Shown: piece by piece, positions 13,383-25,855 of the stretch
Position numbering within the stretch: position 1 is the first letter of the stretch
Layout: every line of letters starts with the position of its first letter
Assembly (NCBI GenBank): GCA_025449115.1
Contig: JAHLKC010000060.1
Span: 1-64,000 of the forward strand
Source of the DNA: Chytridium lagenaria
Lineage: Eukaryota; Chytridiomycota; Chytridiomycetes; Chytridiales; Chytridiaceae
Direction of reading: 5' to 3'
Length of the DNA stretch: 64,000 bases
Position numbers and translations under genes: made by a program
Notes under the pieces: generated by a model
Databases searched by the model: none
What the model saw: only the letters and a program-made list of their open reading frames with translations
Told to the model about the DNA's origin: nothing

Positions 13383-16300
13383 TTAAGCAACTGGTACATC
13401 CACATTTTGCTGCACCGCCAACTGATAATACACCCCCTTCATCGCACACAACTCCCGGTGTGTCCCTTGTTCCACCACCCTCCCCTTCTTCACCACAAAA
13501 ATCACATCCGCACCCTGGATCGAACTCAATCGATGCGCCACAGCCACCGTGGTCCGTCCCTTTGCAGCTGCCATATCCAACGCCTCCTGAACCACCCGTT
13601 CACTCTCCGCATCAAGCGCAGAGGTGGCTTCATCCAACAACAGAATCTTGGGTTGAGCCATCAGCGCCCTCGCGATCGCTATCCGCTGCTTTGACCACCA
13701 GAGAGTTTGGAACCACGGACACCGACGACGGTTTTGTAGCCTTCTGGAAGGGAAAAGAATGAAATCGTGGATGTTGGCGTCTTTGGCTGCTTCAACTACG
13801 CGTGGATCCGTTCCCTCGCTCACAAAGGTCTCATCAGTGTGAAGCCCAAGTAAAATGTTTTCTTCAATGCTCATATCGAATAAACCAGGTTCCTGCGCCA
13901 CGATCCCCACATTCGCCCTTAAATCCTTCAAATTCATTGACCTCAAATCCCGTCCATCAATCTCCACGCTCCCGGCCTCAACATCATAAAACCGTTCCAA
14001 CAACCCCAGCACCGTCGATTTCCCACATCCACTACCCCCAACCAACGCTACAAACTGTCCGGGCTCAACGGATAAACTCAATCCATTTAGGACTTTGACG
14101 CCGGTATACCCAAACACAACGTCTTTAAGTTCGATGCGTCCTATGATGGATTTGGTGGAAACGCCGGCGTTGATGTCGATGAGTGGGGTACGATCGAGGA
14201 TAGTAAAGATAGATTGACCGGCGGAACGGGCTTTGGTGACGTCGGGGATGAATGCAAATATGCGGCCGGCGCTGATCGAGCCAAAGATGACGGCAACAAA
14301 GACGACGAAAAAATCTTGGACTTGGTAGTTTTCATAGGCGATGAGTTGACCGCCATACCAGAACTGATGCGGGTTAGTTGGTTGTAAATAATGTAGTTAC
14401 AAAGAACAATTATATTGAAGCAAAAACAGAGGATGGGAAGTAAATAGCAAAGGCATTTGACACAAAAGTAGATTAATTAAACTGGAGAAAAAAGTTGGCA
14501 ACTCACCACAAGGGATAAACCTAAAAGTTCATACACTGACTAACCGCATAAAATGCCGAACTGCTTACCGCACTCCTGCACCCATCGCTCACGGGTCCCT
14601 TTAACATTCCCACGTAACGTTCATGCACCCATCCTTCTGCCGTTAAAGCCTGCACGCTCCTAATCCCCGCAACGCCCTCACAACAAACCTGCGCGCTCCT
14701 TGCATGCGCCTTCTCAGCTTTTTCCGAAAAATGAGTCAACACTATAACACGGAACGCACCAGCAATGACAAGGAGCGGGAGAACGGTGATTCCAACCAAC
14801 GCGAGTTTCCAGCCATAAAATAGGGAGATGATAGCACCTCCTAGGAGGGTGGAGAGGAGTTGAAGAGACGTGCCGAGGGTGATTCCGGAGGCGCCTTGGA
14901 GTTTTTGGGAGTCGGTGGAGAGGTTTGAGGAAAGAGAGCCCGTGGAGTGGGGTGCTGGAGCGTTTTTGGTGGGTTTAATGGGGGATAAGGAGGTGGAGAA
15001 AAAAGAGAGGTCTTGATGGAGAATAGCGCTAAAGAGGGAGACGGCGGAGACGGTCTGTGAGACGTTCGTTGGCAATACCGAATAGAGTGTTTTGCGCAAT
15101 GTTGGTGATAGCGGTCACTGCAGCCATGACAACAAACATGGAGGCCCTGGTGTGTATGTTAGGTATGCAACAAAGGGGAGTTTGCTTACCAAAATCGAAT
15201 ATCGCGAGTACGTTGAGGCTCGGCAGCGGCAAAGGCTTGAATGACGGAAGAGAAGACGATGGCGAAAATGGGGATGACTAAGCCGGCAATCATTGCAGAA
15301 TGAGACCGGGGGATGGGTGTAGACGAGTTCGGGTTTGCTGAGGAGATATACTTCTTTGATGATCCTCCACTAAATAAATAGTAAGTCTCATAAACTTAGA
15401 GCATCAATCGCGATCACTCACCATAGTTATCGGTTTAATTCTGCTCTTTCCAGCCTCACCCAGTTCCAATGCAACAGACTCCCTCCGATGTCCTTCAGCA
15501 GCACACTCACCATCTTCCATATCCTGCTCCGCCCCCAAAGCCGCATCAGGATCCTCTTCCTTTCTCTCTTCATCCTCCACAGTCTTCAGCTGCTGCGCTT
15601 CAACTAAACCCCTATACACCCCGCTCTCCATCTTCATTAGTTCATCATGCGATCCACTTTCAACAATCACTCCGCCTTTGGACATGACGACAATGCGGTC
15701 GGCGGAACGAAACTGTGGAAAGACGATGCGCCTATAACGATGGTGGTGCGGCCTTTGGAGGCGTTGTCGAGGGCTTGTTGGACAATGGCGCTCAGAGACG
15801 GTATGAGAGCAGAGGTAGCCTCGTCGAGGAGAAGGATCTTTATTAATTATATTTCAAAACACTGTTAATAAATATGTACGTGCAAGATGATGATCTAACC
15901 TGAGGATTTTTGATGATAGCTCTAGCAATAGCGATACGCTGTTTCTGGCCACCGGAAAGCATAAAGCCACGGTCACCAACTTGAGTGGAATAACCTATTC
16001 AAAAAACAGCATTAAACCAACCCCAATGAACACTGTGTATCATACCATTCGGCAACCTCATCACAAATTCATGAGCGTTAGCCAAGATGCAAGCCTGCTT
16101 GACAAGCTCCAACTGTGCTTCCTCAGATGCTTTCTCGTTTGGCGTCCCGATAAGACCTCTGGCGACGTTCCCAGCAATAGTACCGTCAAATAGGATAGGC
16201 TCTTGGGATACGAGACGATTTGACGACGAAGCCAGAGCAGGCTGAGAGTGGTGAGGTTTTGACCGTCCAGTTCGATAGAACCACATTTGGGGTCGTAGAA

Positions 16301-17948
16301 TCGCTCAATAAGCTGTTTATGTAAGTCAACTTGGAGAGAGAAAAACATGGGAAGAAAGCAGGATGTACCTGAATTATTGTCGACTTCCCGGAACCAGAGA
16401 GACCTACTAAAGCTGTGGTAGCACCAGCCTCAACGTCAGATTGAATTTCGTCAGAACTGAAACATCTGGTCGACTCGGGTAATTGAAGTCAACATCGTTA
16501 AACCGAATATTCCCCTTGCATCTCTTCAACTGTTCCGTCTCAGTAGTTCCTCCATCGCCTTTAGGAGCACCAATAGCATCGATATCTGGCACACGATCCA
16601 GTGTTGCCAAAATCTTGGACCCAGCTCCCACCCCCAACGAAAAGGCCTGCATTTCGGGGGCAATCTGCCCCAACGCAACGCTCCCGTCAAGATAGCAAAA
16701 AACACATTCACGACATCCCCGGCACTAATCTCATTTGTCTGCAACAACACGCTCCCATAATAGAATGCCAGCGCATACATCAAGTACATGAACATGAAGA
16801 CGATTCCGGTGCCGGCTCCCGTGATCACGCTTTTCTTAATCCCAAGTTTCACGGCGGGGTCGAGGAGAGCGCTGTAGCGATTTAGCATGCGGGTTTGGGC
16901 GTTTAGGGCGGAGACGGTGCGGATGGAGGAGATACATTCTTCTGCGACTGTACCGGCTTTGGCGTAGCTTGTAAGAATGCTGCGTTGGAATCGGGTACCA
17001 AGGATGTTGGCGGCCCCGGCTGCGAGGACGATAAGTGGGACAACGGAAAGGAGGACAAATGTGAGACGATATGAACGGTAGAATGATATCGCGAATGAGC
17101 CGATAAAGGTAAAGATCTGATAAAAAGCGATGGGGACTTTTTCAGAGACAGCATCCTATTATTAAGAACGTAAGTCAATGCTTGTTAATAACGGACATAC
17201 CTGAATTAAAAGCATGTCGGAGGTGATTCGTGTGGCCACTTCACCAGCACCTTGAGCCTCATGCCACGTGATATCCTGCCTGAGGACGGCCCAAAGGTAC
17301 TTTTCTCTCATCCTGTAAGTGATTCTCTCGCCGGTAGCGACGAATATCCCCATGTAGATGTAGGTAGTGACAAAAGTGAAGGCAGCGAGATACAGAAAGT
17401 ACAGCGTGTTGGTGCGAACATCTACGAGAAAGTTTTGTCTCCAAGTGTTGGTGAAAACCTCGCGTTCAGCGAGGGTAAGGTTGGCGAAAACGGGACTGGA
17501 TGGGGTGACGGAAAAGGTATTGACGAGGTTTCCAAAGACAACGCTACGGTTTATGAGAGAGAGAATAAGCAAATTATTCACGTCGTTTGATACGATTACG
17601 GAGGATATTGAATTCAGAGATCTTACGTTATAAATGGGTGAGCAGTACCAGCAGCTGCAGCACTTACGATGCCAATAAACATCAATAGCATATCAAGAGC
17701 CGTTGCGTATCGGAAAAGTTCCTAAAAATAATGGCGATGCATTAGCAATTGTATTGATATCATAAGGTTGGGAGGTAAGGTACCTTGAACTTTACTCGAC
17801 GCGGGACTTCCTCTGGAACGCTTCCGCCAATAAGGGCATCTTCTTGCCCAGATGTCGGATTTTCCACGGCCTTAAGGCCAGTGGATGGAGAGACCAGGTC
17901 CACAGTGACGATATCATTCTTTTCGATATTTTGTTTGACGTCAGCCAT
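13383..17948 (-). CDS. ABC transporter, subfamily B (MDR/P-glycoprotein type, full length)
   Basis: This is a membrane exporter with two transmembrane domains and two ATPase domains; substrates in this family are often hydrophobic compounds, peptides or lipids. The start [12 protein letters not shown] at 17948 is followed by a short exon ending at 17784. TMD1 follows, including the exon with [17 protein letters not shown] and the coupling region [22 protein letters not shown]1 has Walker [10 protein letters not shown] (about 16390), [14 protein letters not shown] (about 15945) and [11 protein letters not shown] (about 15820). TMD2 runs from about 15390 to 14140, and NBD2 has GGSGCGKST (about 14030) and [16 protein letters not shown] (about 13640), ending at 13383. 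Domain order and length match a full transporter. Several frames must be joined. The NBD2 signature is broken because CAAAAG reads CAAAG near 13690, a one-base homopolymer loss. Another break follows AILTG near 16690. I consider the gene functional but mis-sequenced. Confidence 0.93.
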
Positions 17949-18425
17949 GTTAGAATGAGCGGAAACAAAATGTTTAACGTGAGATAAACTGGACTAAAGA
18001 AATATCTCTAACTTTTTCTGCTGCATAGACATCACATATAGATACTTCTGACAGTTTTATTCTCCATAGTTATAAATATATTTAGAAGGAACCGTAGAAT
18101 GTTTGTTCCAAGTATCTCTCAACGTTCTTTTGGGTGTGTTGTTTGAGGAATGTGTGCCTTTGGTTTTCTTGTTTTTGTAACGCAACACATTCCAGAAGCC
18201 AGTTGGATTACAAAACATTTGGCCCACTTGCCATACCGTACCATGATGTATATAGTTTAAAACAGCCAATGATGTAAAGAGCCAATGAGCGCTCTTTCTA
18301 TAAGTAATCTAAACAGCCAATAACCTTTTGCAGACCGTTTATTAACAACTTTTGTTTCTTTGTTTCCTCTTGTTTACCATCCGTCGCCCTACCATCACCC
18401 ATCACATTCCATCCATCCATCCATC
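17949..18425. other. Divergent promoter region between ABC transporter and transposase-like gene
   Basis: The two genes are transcribed away from each other over this 477-base gap. It carries several CCAAT-like boxes (AGCCAAT near 18264, 18280 and 18314), the classic site for the HAP/NF-Y complex. No terminal inverted repeat could be recognised here. Confidence 0.4.
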
Positions 18426-21400
18426 ATGTCGTCAGAATCTATAAAGGATTACACCGAGGAAACCAATGGAAGGATGGTCCGCAAGAGGCAACGAATCATG
18501 GACTACTTTGTTGTTGCTGATAATGCAACTCGTTCCGATACGGCATCAGCAAGCGCAAGTTCAAGTTCCATCCCCATACTGCCTCCTCTGAACACCCAGG
18601 CGCCGCGAGCATCGGATCCCCCCACATCAAAGCGAGGGAGGAAGGCAGGAAGTAAAAATGCATCCAATCACAAAGCAGGAGGTGTCAGAAAAAACGCTGG
18701 ACGACCTGCAGGAGGAAGCAAACCTGTCCAGAAAGCTGGAACATCATCACGGTGAGCTCATGCATTTAACATAAAAATCTTGTTCTCATATTCTCATAAA
18801 AATAGTCTCGCATTGCCGACACTTCCACCAGATTTACCGACGGATGAGGAGGACGAGATTCCGCTTGTTCAAAATCGACGGAAACGACTTTCTTTTGATG
18901 AGGAGGGGTCATTTCAAAGGTAATTAAAGAAATATTTATATTTAAAAGTAATATGAAAAAAGTCTGGAATGCATGAATCTTGATCGGACCGCTTCACAAG
19001 AAGAATACGAAAAAGTCACAGAAGGAACACGGGTCGCAAATGAAGATTCTTTTATTGATGATGAAGAAATGACGAACGCCGGAACCTTTTTAGAACAAGA
19101 CTGTGTTGGTGGGGGAGCTATCACGAATGGCAGTGATGCGGAAGCAGGAGTCATGACCGATGAGAATACCAGGAGAGTGAGAAATGCCAATAGTGGGGAA
19201 GCAGTAAATGACAACAATAACGATGGGGAGGCAATAGGATGGATGAGCGGAACGCAATTTAGTGACGAACGACTTGCGGTGGATGATTTTGAGAGCGGCG
19301 AGGGAGAAGATGACGAAATTGCTGACGATAATGAGTTGTGGGTATCATCAAAACACTTCTTTACTTAACAACTTTAGAGAAGATGATGTAGACGATGCCG
19401 CGCAAGTTGATGGAAATGGGCCGGTGGATGACTATCTTCACCAACTTTACACGAGGCTTATGGACGACATATCGAAAAAAAGTCAGAATGTCTCGAGCCT
19501 TTATAAGGCACTTTTGGACGGAAAGCTTTGGGTAGACCCACCGGATCCTGTAGCAGACCTAAACAATTCGCTCAAAAAGGGGTTTAAGCCAGATCCCAGC
19601 GTATTTTACCTACCCCGCGTTTTTTTGTGGTTCCCCGACATATCTTTTGCACCGTTTCAGTAAGTCTTTTTTTTTTCGAACATAATAACAAAACACATAA
19701 TTAAAATAAACCGCAGATTCTCGTGCCAGTATTGTCAGAGCTCGGAAAATGTGAAGCGTCGTCGGCCAAAGCGCTCGTTCAGAAAAGTTTACAGCTTGAC
19801 AGACGGCTGCTACTATATATTCACATGCCAGTAAGTGTTTCCTTTCAAAGACTTTCAGTTTCTCCTTCATTTTATCTAAAAATAATATCTTTATTGAATT
19901 TTAGCTACAACTGTCACAAGTGCCCAAAAAACCCAAACCAAAAAACAGCCTCTTGCTTCCTCGGAACGCAACCTTCCGCTATTCGAACCTTACCTCGAGC
20001 GATTCAAGAAGCTTTCCCTGCTCTATTGACGAAGAAGATAGGAGTTGATAATGATATTCTGGCGCTGCTATGTCAAGGGTGTGAGAAGGGTTTGGGGCCA
20101 ACGCAAATTAGCGGAATCTGCAAGGAAAACTATACAGAAGCATATGCGAAGAAAATGTTACGATACTGGGATTTGCTTTTGGCTTTTTCAAAGCTTCCGA
20201 CGCGACCTGCTCTGAGCTATGTGCTTAAACGCGACCTAAGAACGATACCTGACTTCTCAAGTTTCTTTGATCGGAGTGGTTATAATGGACGATTTCCATC
20301 AGGTTCGCAATTTCCGTTTTCCTTCTTTGTCTAAAAATATTCGCTTCAGGTACCTACCTTCAAAAGGTGTTTGTTAAAACAATGGAACTCTCGGAACCTG
20401 TTTATAACGCCAGAATGCCATCGCCTTACAAGTGATATATATAAATGTGATGATAGTTTTAAGGTATGTTACAACCTGATTGTCTATTTATTCACATAAA
20501 GTATAGATAGTCAAACACTCTCAGCAAAAAGGCGGACAGTCTCTTCACAGTGCATACTGCACTATAATGACAAAGTACGGCGAGATAAAAACCTCGATGT
20601 TTTTGCAGTCGGGTTCGCATGACGTTAAGGGACCTCCGTTCCGAGCGCTGGCTGATTCTATAGCAAGACACAACCCTGATCAGCGAGCCCCTGTAGAGTT
20701 TTTCTACACCGATAAGTGTTGCGGCATGGGGGGAGACCGACCTTTTTTGGAGAGTGTTTTTCCATCGTTGAAGGACGGCCTTGCTATTCCCCCGCTCCTA
20801 AGCTTGCCGGGGAGCCCCGGATTTATCTCAAAGACCGGAAATCTTGTTACAGTTTTGCAACCTCTCTTAGAATTCATGGATAATGGAGCGGATCTGATTG
20901 TTGGATTTGATACTGAGTGGAATATGCCCAAAAGGCGCGGCCAACAACGTTCCCGCGTCTGTCTCATTCAAATTGCATTTCGCAAACTTAGCGGATACCA
21001 TACAGAGCGCGTCTTTCCAAACGGTAATGCATTATTTCTGTAACTTTTACACGTGCCGCTTTCTTACCTTTTCATAGATACCGTGCTTTTGATTCAGCTC
21101 AATCCTGACAAGCCAACAGTGCCAGAGGTCCTGAAGGAGTTATTGGAACATCCTCGGCTTATTGCTTCTGGACGGAGCGCAAAGCAGGATGCCAAAAACT
21201 TACTCGATGATTACGCCATCAAGATGGGAAATGTTGTTGCTCTCGAGGAATACGCGCGCGATCACCACCTGCTCCACGGGGATAGACGTCGCTGGTCATT
21301 GCAGATGATGGCAGAGACTTTTCTGGGTTTTACGTTGGACAAAGGCGAGGACCTTCGAAAGACTTCCTGGTCAGCAGATCTGTCAGAGGCTAAAAAGTGT

Positions 21401-23530
21401 TACGCCGCTCGAGACGCTTGGGCTTCACTACTTGTTTACGAGACAATGCAAAAGGCGGTTGCCAATGCGGACGACTCCGTAGTGATCCCTCCTCATGACT
21501 TAGCTTTCCCAGAGCCAGACGACGCGGCAGAGGCTCACCCATCTCCAACGAATTCCTCCAGGCCGGTTTCAAATGAATCTCAGCATTCTGACCGGCACCA
21601 ATCCAACTTTCCGGTCTACAGACGGGGATTAAAGACTCGCGTCTTACTTGATATATTCCATGCCATGAGACGAATCACCAAGTTCATACCCAGCAAGCAT
21701 CCTTTCCTCGGCATCTTCTGTGCAAAGTTAAGGGATGCCTTCTTTCTGTTCAACGACGACGATAAGCAAAAGGTTGAAGACTACATTGCGGAACAAAGGG
21801 ATGATTTTGGACGGCCATGTACATTTGAGTCTCTGCTGCGGAGCAAGCCCCAATGGATCTTTGAACGTGTTCGACGCCGGGTTCCTCCGCCAGATAAGCT
21901 AGAGGAATTGCTTGAGAATGTAATGAGGGAGTTCTCAAAGCCAGAATATACCGTCGACGCTAAAAGGTTGCTGGATGAGAAAGCTTTGGCTGCGTATGAA
22001 AAGCTCCTTATTCACGTGAGGAACGGCTGCATTTCCGACCCCCCTGGCGTAAACCTCTATTTCAAGACGGGCATTGACAAAAAGAGCGGCTTCAACTTTA
22101 TCGAACTATCCGCGGAACTAACGCAGTTGAGACCTACCATCAAAAGCTGGAGATGCACATGGAACCTTGGAATGCCAGCCCTCAACTTTTGCACTATGCT
22201 ACAATGGTTCACAGGCATCGTTACAACGTTCGCGCATCTCAAAAACTCCGGCCTCACTATCCAAAAACAGGAAATTACTCGAATTGGCTGTATGATCAGA
22301 TTATATTGACCAAAGAGAAATTGTATGGTCGTCGTCATCAAGGATTTTATTACGAGCAGTTTACAAGAATTTCACCGAGTCTTGATTTTGAGCCTTTTGG
22401 AGTTGTTCCCGTTGTTGAACGGAAGGACTTTGAAGATGTTGAGAATGCCCCCGAGTTTAAGGGATATTCAACTTCTGAAAAGTTTCTGGCAAAGAAGATG
22501 AGGACAGTCGTGCCACATACACCAATACAGTCGGAACAGGAGAGAGCTTTATTTTTTCGCTTCATACCTCACTACGAAATAACTCGCTTTGGGACTGGTG
22601 AAGCTGCGGGGAAGGGGGGAGACTGGAAGCGAATGGCGGCGGACTGGAATATGGGAAAGTTATGCTTGCACGGGGAAGTTGGATCCGCTAAACCAAATGT
22701 TGCCGCGAAAATATTCCAGAAATTGCCTGATCATCTCGAACAATACTATAAGGTACTAAGTTATAAAAGTGATTTATTAACAAGTTCAGATATATGTAGA
22801 GAGGTGGCAGAAGCGATTCAAGGAGCAGAAACAAAAAGGTGCAGTTCAAATAATGGACCGCCGAGCGGAGGATATTAGAAAAACAGTGGAGGGAGAAATG
22901 ATTGAAGGGTCTACCGTGTTCCAAGAGCCCGAAGAGCTTCTCCCTGATTATGGCGAGATAATGCACTACTTTGAGGAGAGAGAAGGGGAAGACGAGGTCA
23001 ATACTAACTCGGAAGGAGATGACATGCAAATGGAGACTGACCTAAATTCGCCTTCCACATCTCCCATCCCATACAATCCTTCCCCCTTCTTCGCCTCAAG
23101 CTCGCGTACCCTTTCGAATCCCTTATATCCCATCAATCGGAAGTACCTCTATGGAAGATGTTACTGCGCAATCTGTTGTTGAAATCGCGCAGCAAACAGT
23201 TAGAGCATCAGTGCCCTCGATAACGCGAGAGGAACAGCCAGAAAGACAAAGAGCAGCGGGAAAAAAAGTAAGGGAGTGTAAAATATGCGGGTTGGCCAAA
23301 TGCAAAGGTAAATTAAGAATATTCTTGCCTACCTAACTTCCAAGGTGCAACACCCCGCGGATCTTGTGTGAATAAATGCGAGAAGTGTAGAGAAGAGGAT
23401 TGTCCAGGAAAGGGATCAAAAAAAGGTTAGCAATCGAGTTGGATGTGTGGAAAAGCTACTGACCTTTTCCTGAGAAGGCCAAAAATGTCGATGGCTACTT
23501 CTCGGCAGCCGCACGCTGCAGCCGAAATGA
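18426..23530 (+). CDS. Transposase-like protein with inserted WRN-type 3'-5' exonuclease
   Basis: Exons 18426-18751, 18806-18919, about 18962-19335, then several more to the stop at 23530. The N terminus is basic then very acidic. A cysteine module follows (FSCQYC near 19730, YNCHKCPKNP near 19910), which I recall as typical of the DUF6729 type. A DDE-like first Asp is in KCDDSFK (about 20455), and the second in YTDKCCG (about 20707). Inserted after it is a DEDDy exonuclease: FDTEW near 20910, SRVCLIQIA, a third Asp in SAKQDAKNL (about 21185) and YAARDAW (about 21410). The fold resumes with VLLDIFHAMRRI (about 21650), and the presumed third acidic residue lies in RGTNAVE (about 22125). That motif is reached only if one T is restored in a T-run near 22098. 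A second break lies near 23130. The Cys-rich tail (CKICGLAKC, then CVNKCEKC) ends the protein. The family assignment rests on motif order; DNA cutting is inferred, not shown. Confidence 0.8.
18426..23530 (+). mobile_element. Probable DNA transposon body (ends not found)
   Basis: The transposase-like gene defines the core of a putative element. I could not find terminal inverted repeats or a target-site duplication in 18.0-18.4 kb or 23.5-24.1 kb. It could be a domesticated gene or a decayed copy that has lost its ends. The gene is much less damaged than its neighbours, which would fit recent arrival or selection. Confidence 0.4.
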
Positions 23531-24062
23531 AGAAATAATTGGTCGACGAATAACGTTAATTAATACATAAATAAAGATTTACATCATTTTTAAGTCAGCT
23601 CGCAACACTCACCGTTAATTCCCAACTGCGATCGAAAGGTATGCTAGGCTGTAGATAGTTATCATCCATTAGAATACAACGCAATCAGTCTTACCTAGAT
23701 CCGTCCTGTCCCTTCCCGTCTCTTCCTCCCCTTCCTTCAACCTCTCCTTCTTCCCCTTCCCCATCGATACCCAGTTGAACCCCCCCCTACCTCCGAATTT
23801 TTGATTCTTTAATTTTTGATTACAGCTGTGGTACGGTATGGTAAGGGGGCCAACATTTTGAACTTTATATGAACCTTTGGGAGTCAAGAAATACGATTTG
23901 AGAAAAAGAGGGTCAGTGAGTGGGCCTGTTTGAGAAGAGAAAGTCTCAGGCCTCTAAGGTTGGAGATGGTTGGTGGATAAATAAAAACCGTCGAAAGGAT
24001 CACAGCTTGAAGTCTTATACTTTGCTTGCATTTATATTGTTATTCTAACACAACTATCATCA
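23531..24062. other. Intergenic downstream of the transposase-like gene
   Basis: Starts with an AT-rich 3' region (AATAAA at about 23569), then a C/T-rich stretch at 23690-23790. No coding signal seen. Confidence 0.4.
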
Positions 24063-25855
24063 GTGGCGTGTGATCAAGGAAGTGTATCAACTCAATAAAC
24101 CCGAAGTCGGGTACACAATCCCAGGCCTCGTCGCTACAACTATCGCCGGCTAAGTCATCTCATTCTTCTCCATCATTTTTTCCTCCATCATCCAAGCCTT
24201 TTCCTACCCTTGAACACTAACGATATTCGATTCTGGTAAATACCCCCCCGCCTCGTTCCTGTTATTAATTCTTTCTCCTAAGCGCCCTATTTGGCATCGC
24301 CAACGTCTCACAGACCGTATCCGTCGTCTTCTTTTCCGAGCCATCCTTTTTTGCAAGCACCGACACTCCCACCCACATTGTTGAAAAAAAAGAAATGTAG
24401 AAAATCCTAACGGCTCCCACCTTATTGGCGCAGGAGCGTTCCGGATTATCGTTTTAGCGCACTTTTCAAACAACGCGGAAAAGGGCCATTCGAGAAAGTG
24501 GGTAGGCTGCTTGTGAAGGGGTTGCGGCTAATTAGGACTGTGCGGGGATTGACTGCGGGGTGTGGGTGCATGAACGGTATTTCGGGATGTTGGAGGGACC
24601 GCTGAAGGATGGATGTAAGGTGACGGAGAGTAGGACCGGGTTTTTTGTTTAGTCAGCGTGTCAACGTTTTGGGGAATGCGCTTTTGGTGAGTCTTTGTCC
24701 TTTCGTTCTTATTTCCTCTGATGATTTACCCCTGTCGAGCACTTTCAATTGATCCATTTCTATCTCGCTTTTCTTTTAAAATAATTGTGGTACGGCGGCC
24801 AACCCATTGCTTACGAGAACTATGAAGTCAAAAACTTTTTCGGCGTCTTCATGGCCACCATCTTTGGTTGTATCAGCGCTGGCCGTATTTTGCAGTCGTT
24901 CCTGACATCACCAAAGCCCGTAAGCCGTCCTGACCATCCTCGATCACGAACCCTTCATCGACATTGACTCTTAAAAGAGTCGTCCACTTCCCTTTAGCGG
25001 GACCGATAAATCCCACACCGTTAACAGTCGTATTGAATTAAACGACGTATGGTTTTCGTATACGACAGAGGTTACGATAACGGCGGCACCGACGTTGAGG
25101 GGTATTGAATTTGACGGTGGAGCTGGGACAGTTTGTGGTGGGACCGTCTGGGTGTGGAAAGTCGACGATGTTGGGGCTTGAAGTTTTTTCATGATGTTGA
25201 TTTTGGGCATGCCTATAGATGTTACTGATATTCGACTTTGGGATCTTTGATCTGTTGCTGGAATCGTATCTGAGGAACGGGTTATTCGACATGTTGGTGG
25301 AAGAACACATTCTCCTCGGTTTAATCGATAAAGATGAACCTTAAGTAGAGGGCAAACAGTACGCCCGTGTCGAAGATCTGCGAAAGAAGCCAACGTTCAC
25401 GATTTCGCATCACCCTCCTAGAAGGCTTCAAAACCCCGGTCGGGAACACGTGGTTCCCCGACTCCCTGGTGGTCAAAAGCAACGTGTCGTGTGTTGATCG
25501 ATGCACCCAAGATGTTATTTGAGTGAGGTCACCTCTGCGCTTGATGCTCAGAGTGAACGGGGTGTGCAAGATGCGTTGGATAGATGCTAACGGTCGACGA
25601 CGATGGTCGTGGTGCATCGATCTAAATGTTAACATCACAATTGCCTCGAGTATACAGGGGTTTAAACCCCCTTATACCTGATATAACATCCAAAAATGTA
25701 AATGATTTGGAAATAGTGTGAAGTTGATATTCAGATTGATTTCGATTCAGCATGCGGATGTGATTTTTTGTGTTGAGGGATGGAGGGGTTGCGGAACGGG
25801 GACACATCAGGAGTTGTGTTTGAGGAGGTTGTATTATGAGTTGGCGGTGCCGTAG
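24063..25855 (+). pseudogene. Decayed C-terminal half of an ABCB transporter
   Basis: This is a relic of TMD2 plus NBD2, closest in my reading to the intact transporter at 13.4-17.9 kb but on the opposite strand. Matches appear in order. VIKEVYQLNKPEVGYT (24065) corresponds to [36 protein letters not shown] lies near 24440, and LWYGGQPIAYENYEVKNFF at 24783. A Walker A remnant (GPSGCGKST) is near 25140, a signature remnant (LPGGQKQRV) near 25465 and SALDAQSERGVQDALDR near 25535. The end YYELAVP stops at 25855. Unlike its parent, the copy has many frame changes, in-frame stops, missing blocks and about 100 extra bases between the H-loop and IQHADVIF (about 25625-25735). That is too much to blame on sequencing, so it is a true pseudogene. 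Confidence 0.85.

Follow-up and report, generated by a model that had tools for sequence, protein, structure and literature searches.

A transposon with terminal inverted repeats in Chytridium lagenaria and its probable Dada-type transposase carrying a DEDDy exonuclease

We analysed a stretch of 64,000 nucleotides from Chytridium lagenaria (assembly GCA_025449115.1, contig JAHLKC010000060.1, positions 1 to 64,000 of the forward strand), called the window below. It harbors a transposon of 5,631 bp with one large putative transposase gene, which were located at the following positions:

18221 to 23851, + strand: whole transposon, defined by both ends and by seven matching places in the genome
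18221 to 18243, + strand: left terminal inverted repeat (TIR), GGCCCACTTGCCATACCGTACCA; seven left ends read genome-wide
23829 to 23851, - strand: right TIR; six right ends read genome-wide
18214 to 18220, no strand: left copy of the target duplication, AACATTT, here of 7 bp
23852 to 23858, no strand: right target duplication, AACATTT
18426 to 23530, + strand: transposase gene with about ten exons and frame breaks in this copy, modelled by eye

The 23-bp TIRs of the window copy were identical to each other at 21 of 23 positions. Seven places in the genome were matched by a 1.7-kb query from the element, and a protein search of the same genome returned the identical set of contigs (at least seven). 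Altogether 13 element ends were read on nine contigs, all of which carried the tip GGCC. A search with the TIR pattern gave 15 genome matches, namely the 13 ends and two further sites (C94 and C127) with two mismatches each, while the reversed pattern used as a control gave four. Just inside the tips, the lengths of the runs vary (four or five G on the right, two, three or five C on the left), a variation that trimming or errors of assembly may explain. Four copies possessed both ends. Three of them were flanked by an exact duplication of 8 bp (GAGAATTG in the C57 copy, AAAAAAAG in C178 and TAAAAAAA in C148); the flanks of the window copy share AACATTT and differ in the eighth base. Two random window positions are identical over eight bases with a frequency of 4.3e-5, a generous figure because poly-A sites are among the duplications.

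The C57 copy (flanks in L008) sits within another repeat, and a related unoccupied site was found on C13 (L068), where GAGAATTG occurs once and the sequence is continuous across the junction. In a second, more diverged unoccupied site on C53 (L069), one of the eight bases was changed. When the two flanks of the window copy were joined and searched against the genome, they matched only themselves and, over part of their length, a repeat on C31. Thus, the ends, copies and duplications together with the related unoccupied site demonstrate that the element was mobile in the past, and the conserved ends and target duplications for which the first-pass annotation of this DNA had proposed a survey do exist. 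In an alignment of 5,578 bases, the C57 and window copies show 40 indel events against 37 substitutions, and so high a share of indels makes us suspect errors of assembly. The two ends of the C148 copy (L010, L018) lie approximately 15.7 kb apart. This copy therefore seems to be interrupted, and about 10 kb of other sequence may be nested inside it.

The motifs of the gene, whose splice sites were assigned by eye, are given here with the corresponding motifs of three relatives (P0001, L070 and P0060) described below:

19427 to 20330, + strand: DUF6729 region and N-terminal cysteine finger on several exons (PF20499, E 1.7e-6, in one open reading frame, ORF)
19721 to 19735 and 19906 to 19923, + strand: cysteines of the N-terminal finger
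20443 to 20463, + strand: KCDDSFK, with the first acidic residue, D, at 20449 to 20451; aligned with SGDHFFK of P0001 and L070
20705 to 20722, + strand: YTDKCC, with the second acidic residue, D, at 20711 to 20713; aligned with FSDN (P0001), FTDN (L070) and YTDN (P0060)
20897 to 21460, + strand: DEDDy 3'-5' exonuclease domain with one intron (PF01612; WRN exonuclease)
20906 to 20920, 21182 to 21199 and 21401 to 21421, + strand: exonuclease motifs FDTEW, KQDAKN and YAARDAW
about 21020 to 21076, + strand: intron inside the exonuclease, by eye
21644 to 21667, + strand: LLDIFHAM, with the DxxH motif (DIFH) at 21650 to 21661
22111 to 22131, + strand: RGTNAVE, with the third acidic residue, E, at 22129 to 22131; conserved in 62 of the 63 cores compared
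23277 to 23303, + strand: CKICGLAKC, start of the C-terminal cysteine-rich finger, which continues on the next exon

All motifs named by the first-pass annotation were thus located on the + strand in the order it had given, though they are spread over several exons with frame breaks. The first and the second D reside on separate exons, and the reading frame of the window copy is shifted within the first-D exon and again shortly before RGTNAVE. In the C98 copy the first-D exon is in a single frame, and in the C148 copy one frame of 580 residues contains the second half of the exonuclease, DIFHAMRRI and RGTNAVE. The annotation had also called the exonuclease WRN-like, which was affirmed by Pfam (PF01612, E 6.3e-13, exceeding the cut-off, on another ORF than DUF6729) and by comparison with PDB sequences (WRN exonuclease, E 3.5e-13). 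The D-x-E, D and Y-x3-D of DEDDy exonucleases are all present. DUF6729 stretches were also seen outside the element, above the Pfam cut-off on C15 (L060, 98803 to 99111), C14 (L061, 394417 to 394659) and C18 and below it on C32. Within the adjoining DNA available for these four, reading onward disclosed no transposase half, nor any exonuclease beside the L060 and L061 stretches, which we regard as stand-alone DUF6729 genes or remnants.

When the joined window protein of 1017 residues was used alone as query, no match was obtained among 6246 candidates. Addition of a second sequence to the query profile opened the family; a bait sequence was included in both search profiles. The profile search yielded P0001 (1874 residues, E 6.1e-109), and the search with the C-terminal half, which the annotation had suggested, gave 63 proteins at E values up to 0.01 (weakest 0.0093). 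By their record names, they include proteins of Mycena leptocephala, Mycena olivaceomarginata, Lentinula raphanica, Cladochytrium replicatum, Mucor hiemalis and Laminaria digitata, and in BLASTP each by itself was 25 to 46% identical to the window-family sequence. In a tree of 63 C-terminal cores no protein stood close to the window family, and among the viral contigs searched no relative was confirmed. Searches of prokaryote genomes gave L070 as the single match. This contig (JAHDDY010000130.1, 1 to 7056), filed under a Rhodobacteraceae metagenome-assembled genome, encodes an open frame of 1964 residues for a eukaryote-type transposase and is probably a mis-binned stray eukaryote contig; examination of L070 for terminal repeats gave none that were convincing.

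P0001 and L070 are single ORFs which contain the first D, the second D, the DEDDy exonuclease, DxxH and the E in one chain, with SGDHFFK, FSDN or FTDN, GLDAEW, YAAxD, DVMH and RGTNxNE in frame and with DUF6729 at E 1e-14 and 8.3e-16, respectively. P0001 is 26% and 29% identical to the window protein in two segments, while L070 shares 29% with it in the best segment and 37% with P0001. All motifs from the second D onward are present in P0060 (Mucor). The position of the exonuclease between the second and third acidic residues, as claimed by the annotation, recurs in the two complete relatives, and judged by these sequences the motif order is more than chance. The four DEDDy residues are kept in the window protein and in the three relatives with the full domain. 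Conservation of the C-terminal half was read from the core of 65 of 66 sequences (without P0062), of which two short ones were dropped. Among the 63 remaining cores, only one has lost the E of RGTNxxE; in ungapped rows the D of DxxH is kept in 35 of 35 and the H in 34 of 36. By eye, the cysteine pattern at the ends of L070 and P0032 resembles the C-terminal finger of the window protein.

A protein of this kind has been described by Kojima and Jurka in 2013 (PMC3706591). For this and the other papers cited, our statements refer to the accessible parts of the text, and the comparison with Dada was made on the published descriptions. In Dada-1_LB and Dada-2_LB of Laccaria bicolor and Dada-1_ES of Ectocarpus siliculosus, an exonuclease follows the second D and precedes DxxH, and the processing of cleaved 3' ends was proposed as its role; an exonuclease was reported for the Dada elements of these two genera only (PMC3706591). 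The annotation, which knew of related uncharacterised fungal proteins but of no described mechanism, is thereby corrected. Like the window protein, these transposases are encoded with introns and combine the DEDDy domain with a DDE triad and with zinc fingers close to either end of the chain; their hosts are mushrooms and brown algae, where we found relatives of the window protein, too. In Ectocarpus, one Dada family with 15 copies is known (PMC12477816). Animal and Perkinsus Dada proteins share the DDE triad with DxxH and the cysteine fingers (PMC3706591; PMC8869645). In the window protein, DxxH follows the second D as in Dada, according to motifs and alignment, and the N-terminal finger (C-x2-C, 35 residues, C-x2-C, by eye) has the same inner spacing of 35, although the spacing of its first cysteine pair differs from that of Dada-U6_DR. 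The third ligand of the cysteine-rich C-terminal finger looks like C, as against H in the CCHC of Dada. With its 5,631 bp the element lies within the range of Dada lengths (4,666 to 10,979 bp; PMC3706591). One Dada copy was reported inside a hAT element (PMC8869645).

The ends tell a different story. Dada is diagnosed by duplications of 6 to 7 bp, insertion into small nuclear RNA (snRNA) or transfer RNA (tRNA) genes and the absence of TIRs, the latter stated for Dada-U6 and Dada-U1 (PMC3706591; PMC8869645). Unlike the animal and Perkinsus elements, which follow this pattern, the window element has a 23-bp TIR and 8-bp duplications in three of its four complete copies, 7 bp being found in the window copy alone. 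Small-RNA genes were sought with Rfam and ARAGORN, and none was recognised in 12 loci containing copies or ends, in the window (ARAGORN) and in the two unoccupied sites, although gene halves split by insertion could escape such searches. The right end of the C170 copy (L029, 1443 to 1500), one of the 13 ends, adjoins by eye a T run and a T-arm resembling that of a tRNA; a permissive Rfam search gave no confirmation, and no tRNA was called. In its termini, in the length of its duplications and in its target sites the element departs from the published diagnosis. We therefore regard the protein as Dada-type but do not assign the whole element to Dada.

We concluded that the element probably is a cut-and-paste DNA transposon with a single large Dada-type DDE transposase. 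Its chain would consist of the DUF6729 zinc region, the first and second D, the DEDDy exonuclease, DxxH, a helical stretch, the E and the C-terminal cysteine finger. The zinc regions may bind the inverted repeats, and the D-D-E site would cut both ends and join them to the target with a stagger of 8 bp, in the manner of the hAT, P, MuDR and Kolobok groups. The exonuclease would trim the 3' ends freed by cutting. Since the tip GGCC is kept in every end read, we favour donor-side or overhanging flank ends as its substrate, though with clearly less than an even chance.

Some observations speak against this interpretation. AlphaFold models of P0001 (600 to 1480) and L070 (1937 to 4438) contain the exonuclease, but in neither was the transposase core built, so that the case for an RNase H fold is drawn from the motifs and from the literature. 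No copy that was read is open throughout, the window copy being frame-broken, and the Pfam scan of window ORFs and aligned relatives gave no match to a transposase family. P0002 and P0003 lack the H of DxxH, and in P0061 of Laminaria, outside the trimmed cores, its D is replaced by N. The structure check proposed by the annotation, run on these two relatives, gave the exonuclease, while the region from the first to the second D was obtained at low confidence in both models; among the alignment rows listed, the first D was covered by one and two sequences, respectively. A profile of the C-terminal half gave no match below E 0.35 against PDB. Among the fold matches listed, most were exonucleases and polymerases with WRN as the closest; this does not argue against a transposase fold. 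The annotation had placed the exonuclease in the interval where hAT transposases carry a helical insert. It does lie in the interval from D to E, but precedes DxxH, while in both models a helical stretch follows this motif; the chain thus has both.

That the element is an ordinary Dada transposon, whose TIRs and 8-bp duplications represent unreported variation within the superfamily, has somewhat less than an even chance in our estimation. The protein agrees with Dada in most points (DDE with DxxH, four-cysteine finger with its inner spacing, introns, size, position of the exonuclease), the C170 end lies next to the T-arm mentioned, and duplications of 8 bp for Dada-U1 were not excluded by the authors (PMC3706591), yet TIRs, predominant 8-bp duplications and the absence of a recognised RNA gene conflict with the diagnosis. 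Among the papers listed by our literature searches, no Dada element with TIRs or 8-bp duplications was seen, and a search for DUF6729 found no paper. With a somewhat lower probability, the exonuclease-bearing DUF6729 transposases of fungi and algae may form a lineage of their own beside Dada, characterized by TIRs, 8-bp duplications, no targeting of small-RNA genes and an exonuclease fixed in end processing. Should this be true, strict targeting of small-RNA genes and the absence of TIRs belong to other Dada lineages.

It is unlikely that the exonuclease acts on RNA, e.g., by trimming small silencing RNAs, instead of on transposition ends. RNase D, Rrp6, Nibbler and Egalitarian were also among the fold matches listed, but the closest matches were to the DNA exonuclease WRN, and the location inside the catalytic interval suggests that the domain acts on the same DNA. 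The missing transposase core in the models would suit a cargo nuclease in an element moved by another protein. We regard this as quite improbable, as no second large protein was found when the frames of the 5.6-kb element were read, and the DDE motifs and the published Dada assignment speak against it. Introns and frame breaks split the window copy, and one might suppose that an erroneous gene model had joined separate exonuclease and transposase genes; the single open frames of P0001, L070 and P0060 make such an artefact hardly conceivable.

Other systems share single traits with the Dada-type element of the window. TIRs occur in hAT and P transposons as well, and an exonuclease before DxxH is not known in either of them. 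Both groups, to which Dada is related along with MuDR and Kolobok, also produce duplications of about 8 bp and possess a C/DxxH motif (PMC3706591), two traits present in the window element; hAT families of Pfam gave no match in the window ORFs or in 29 aligned members. KolobokD is a DDD/E transposon whose exonuclease is presumed to work on 3' ends; this enzyme is, however, of the DEDDh type (TREX-like), and the Kolobok duplication is the 4-bp TTAA (PMC9587614). The WRN exonuclease differs from that of the window, which lies inside a transposase chain and has no helicase.

While the architecture has been known since 2013, its end features are new as far as our literature search reaches. Defined ends, duplications and an unoccupied site are now given for an exonuclease within a transposase, whereas termini, duplications and targets of the exonuclease-bearing families are unstated in the accessible text of PMC3706591. 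The known ends make the role of the exonuclease testable in a reporter, and they raise the question whether strict targeting of small-RNA genes holds throughout Dada or in certain lineages only. To the left of the transposon, the window contains ABC transporter ORFs (PF00005, PF00664) on the - strand at 13383 to 14396 and 16526 to 17155, and a similar fragment was recognised by eye to its right on the + strand (approximately 24790 to 24900).
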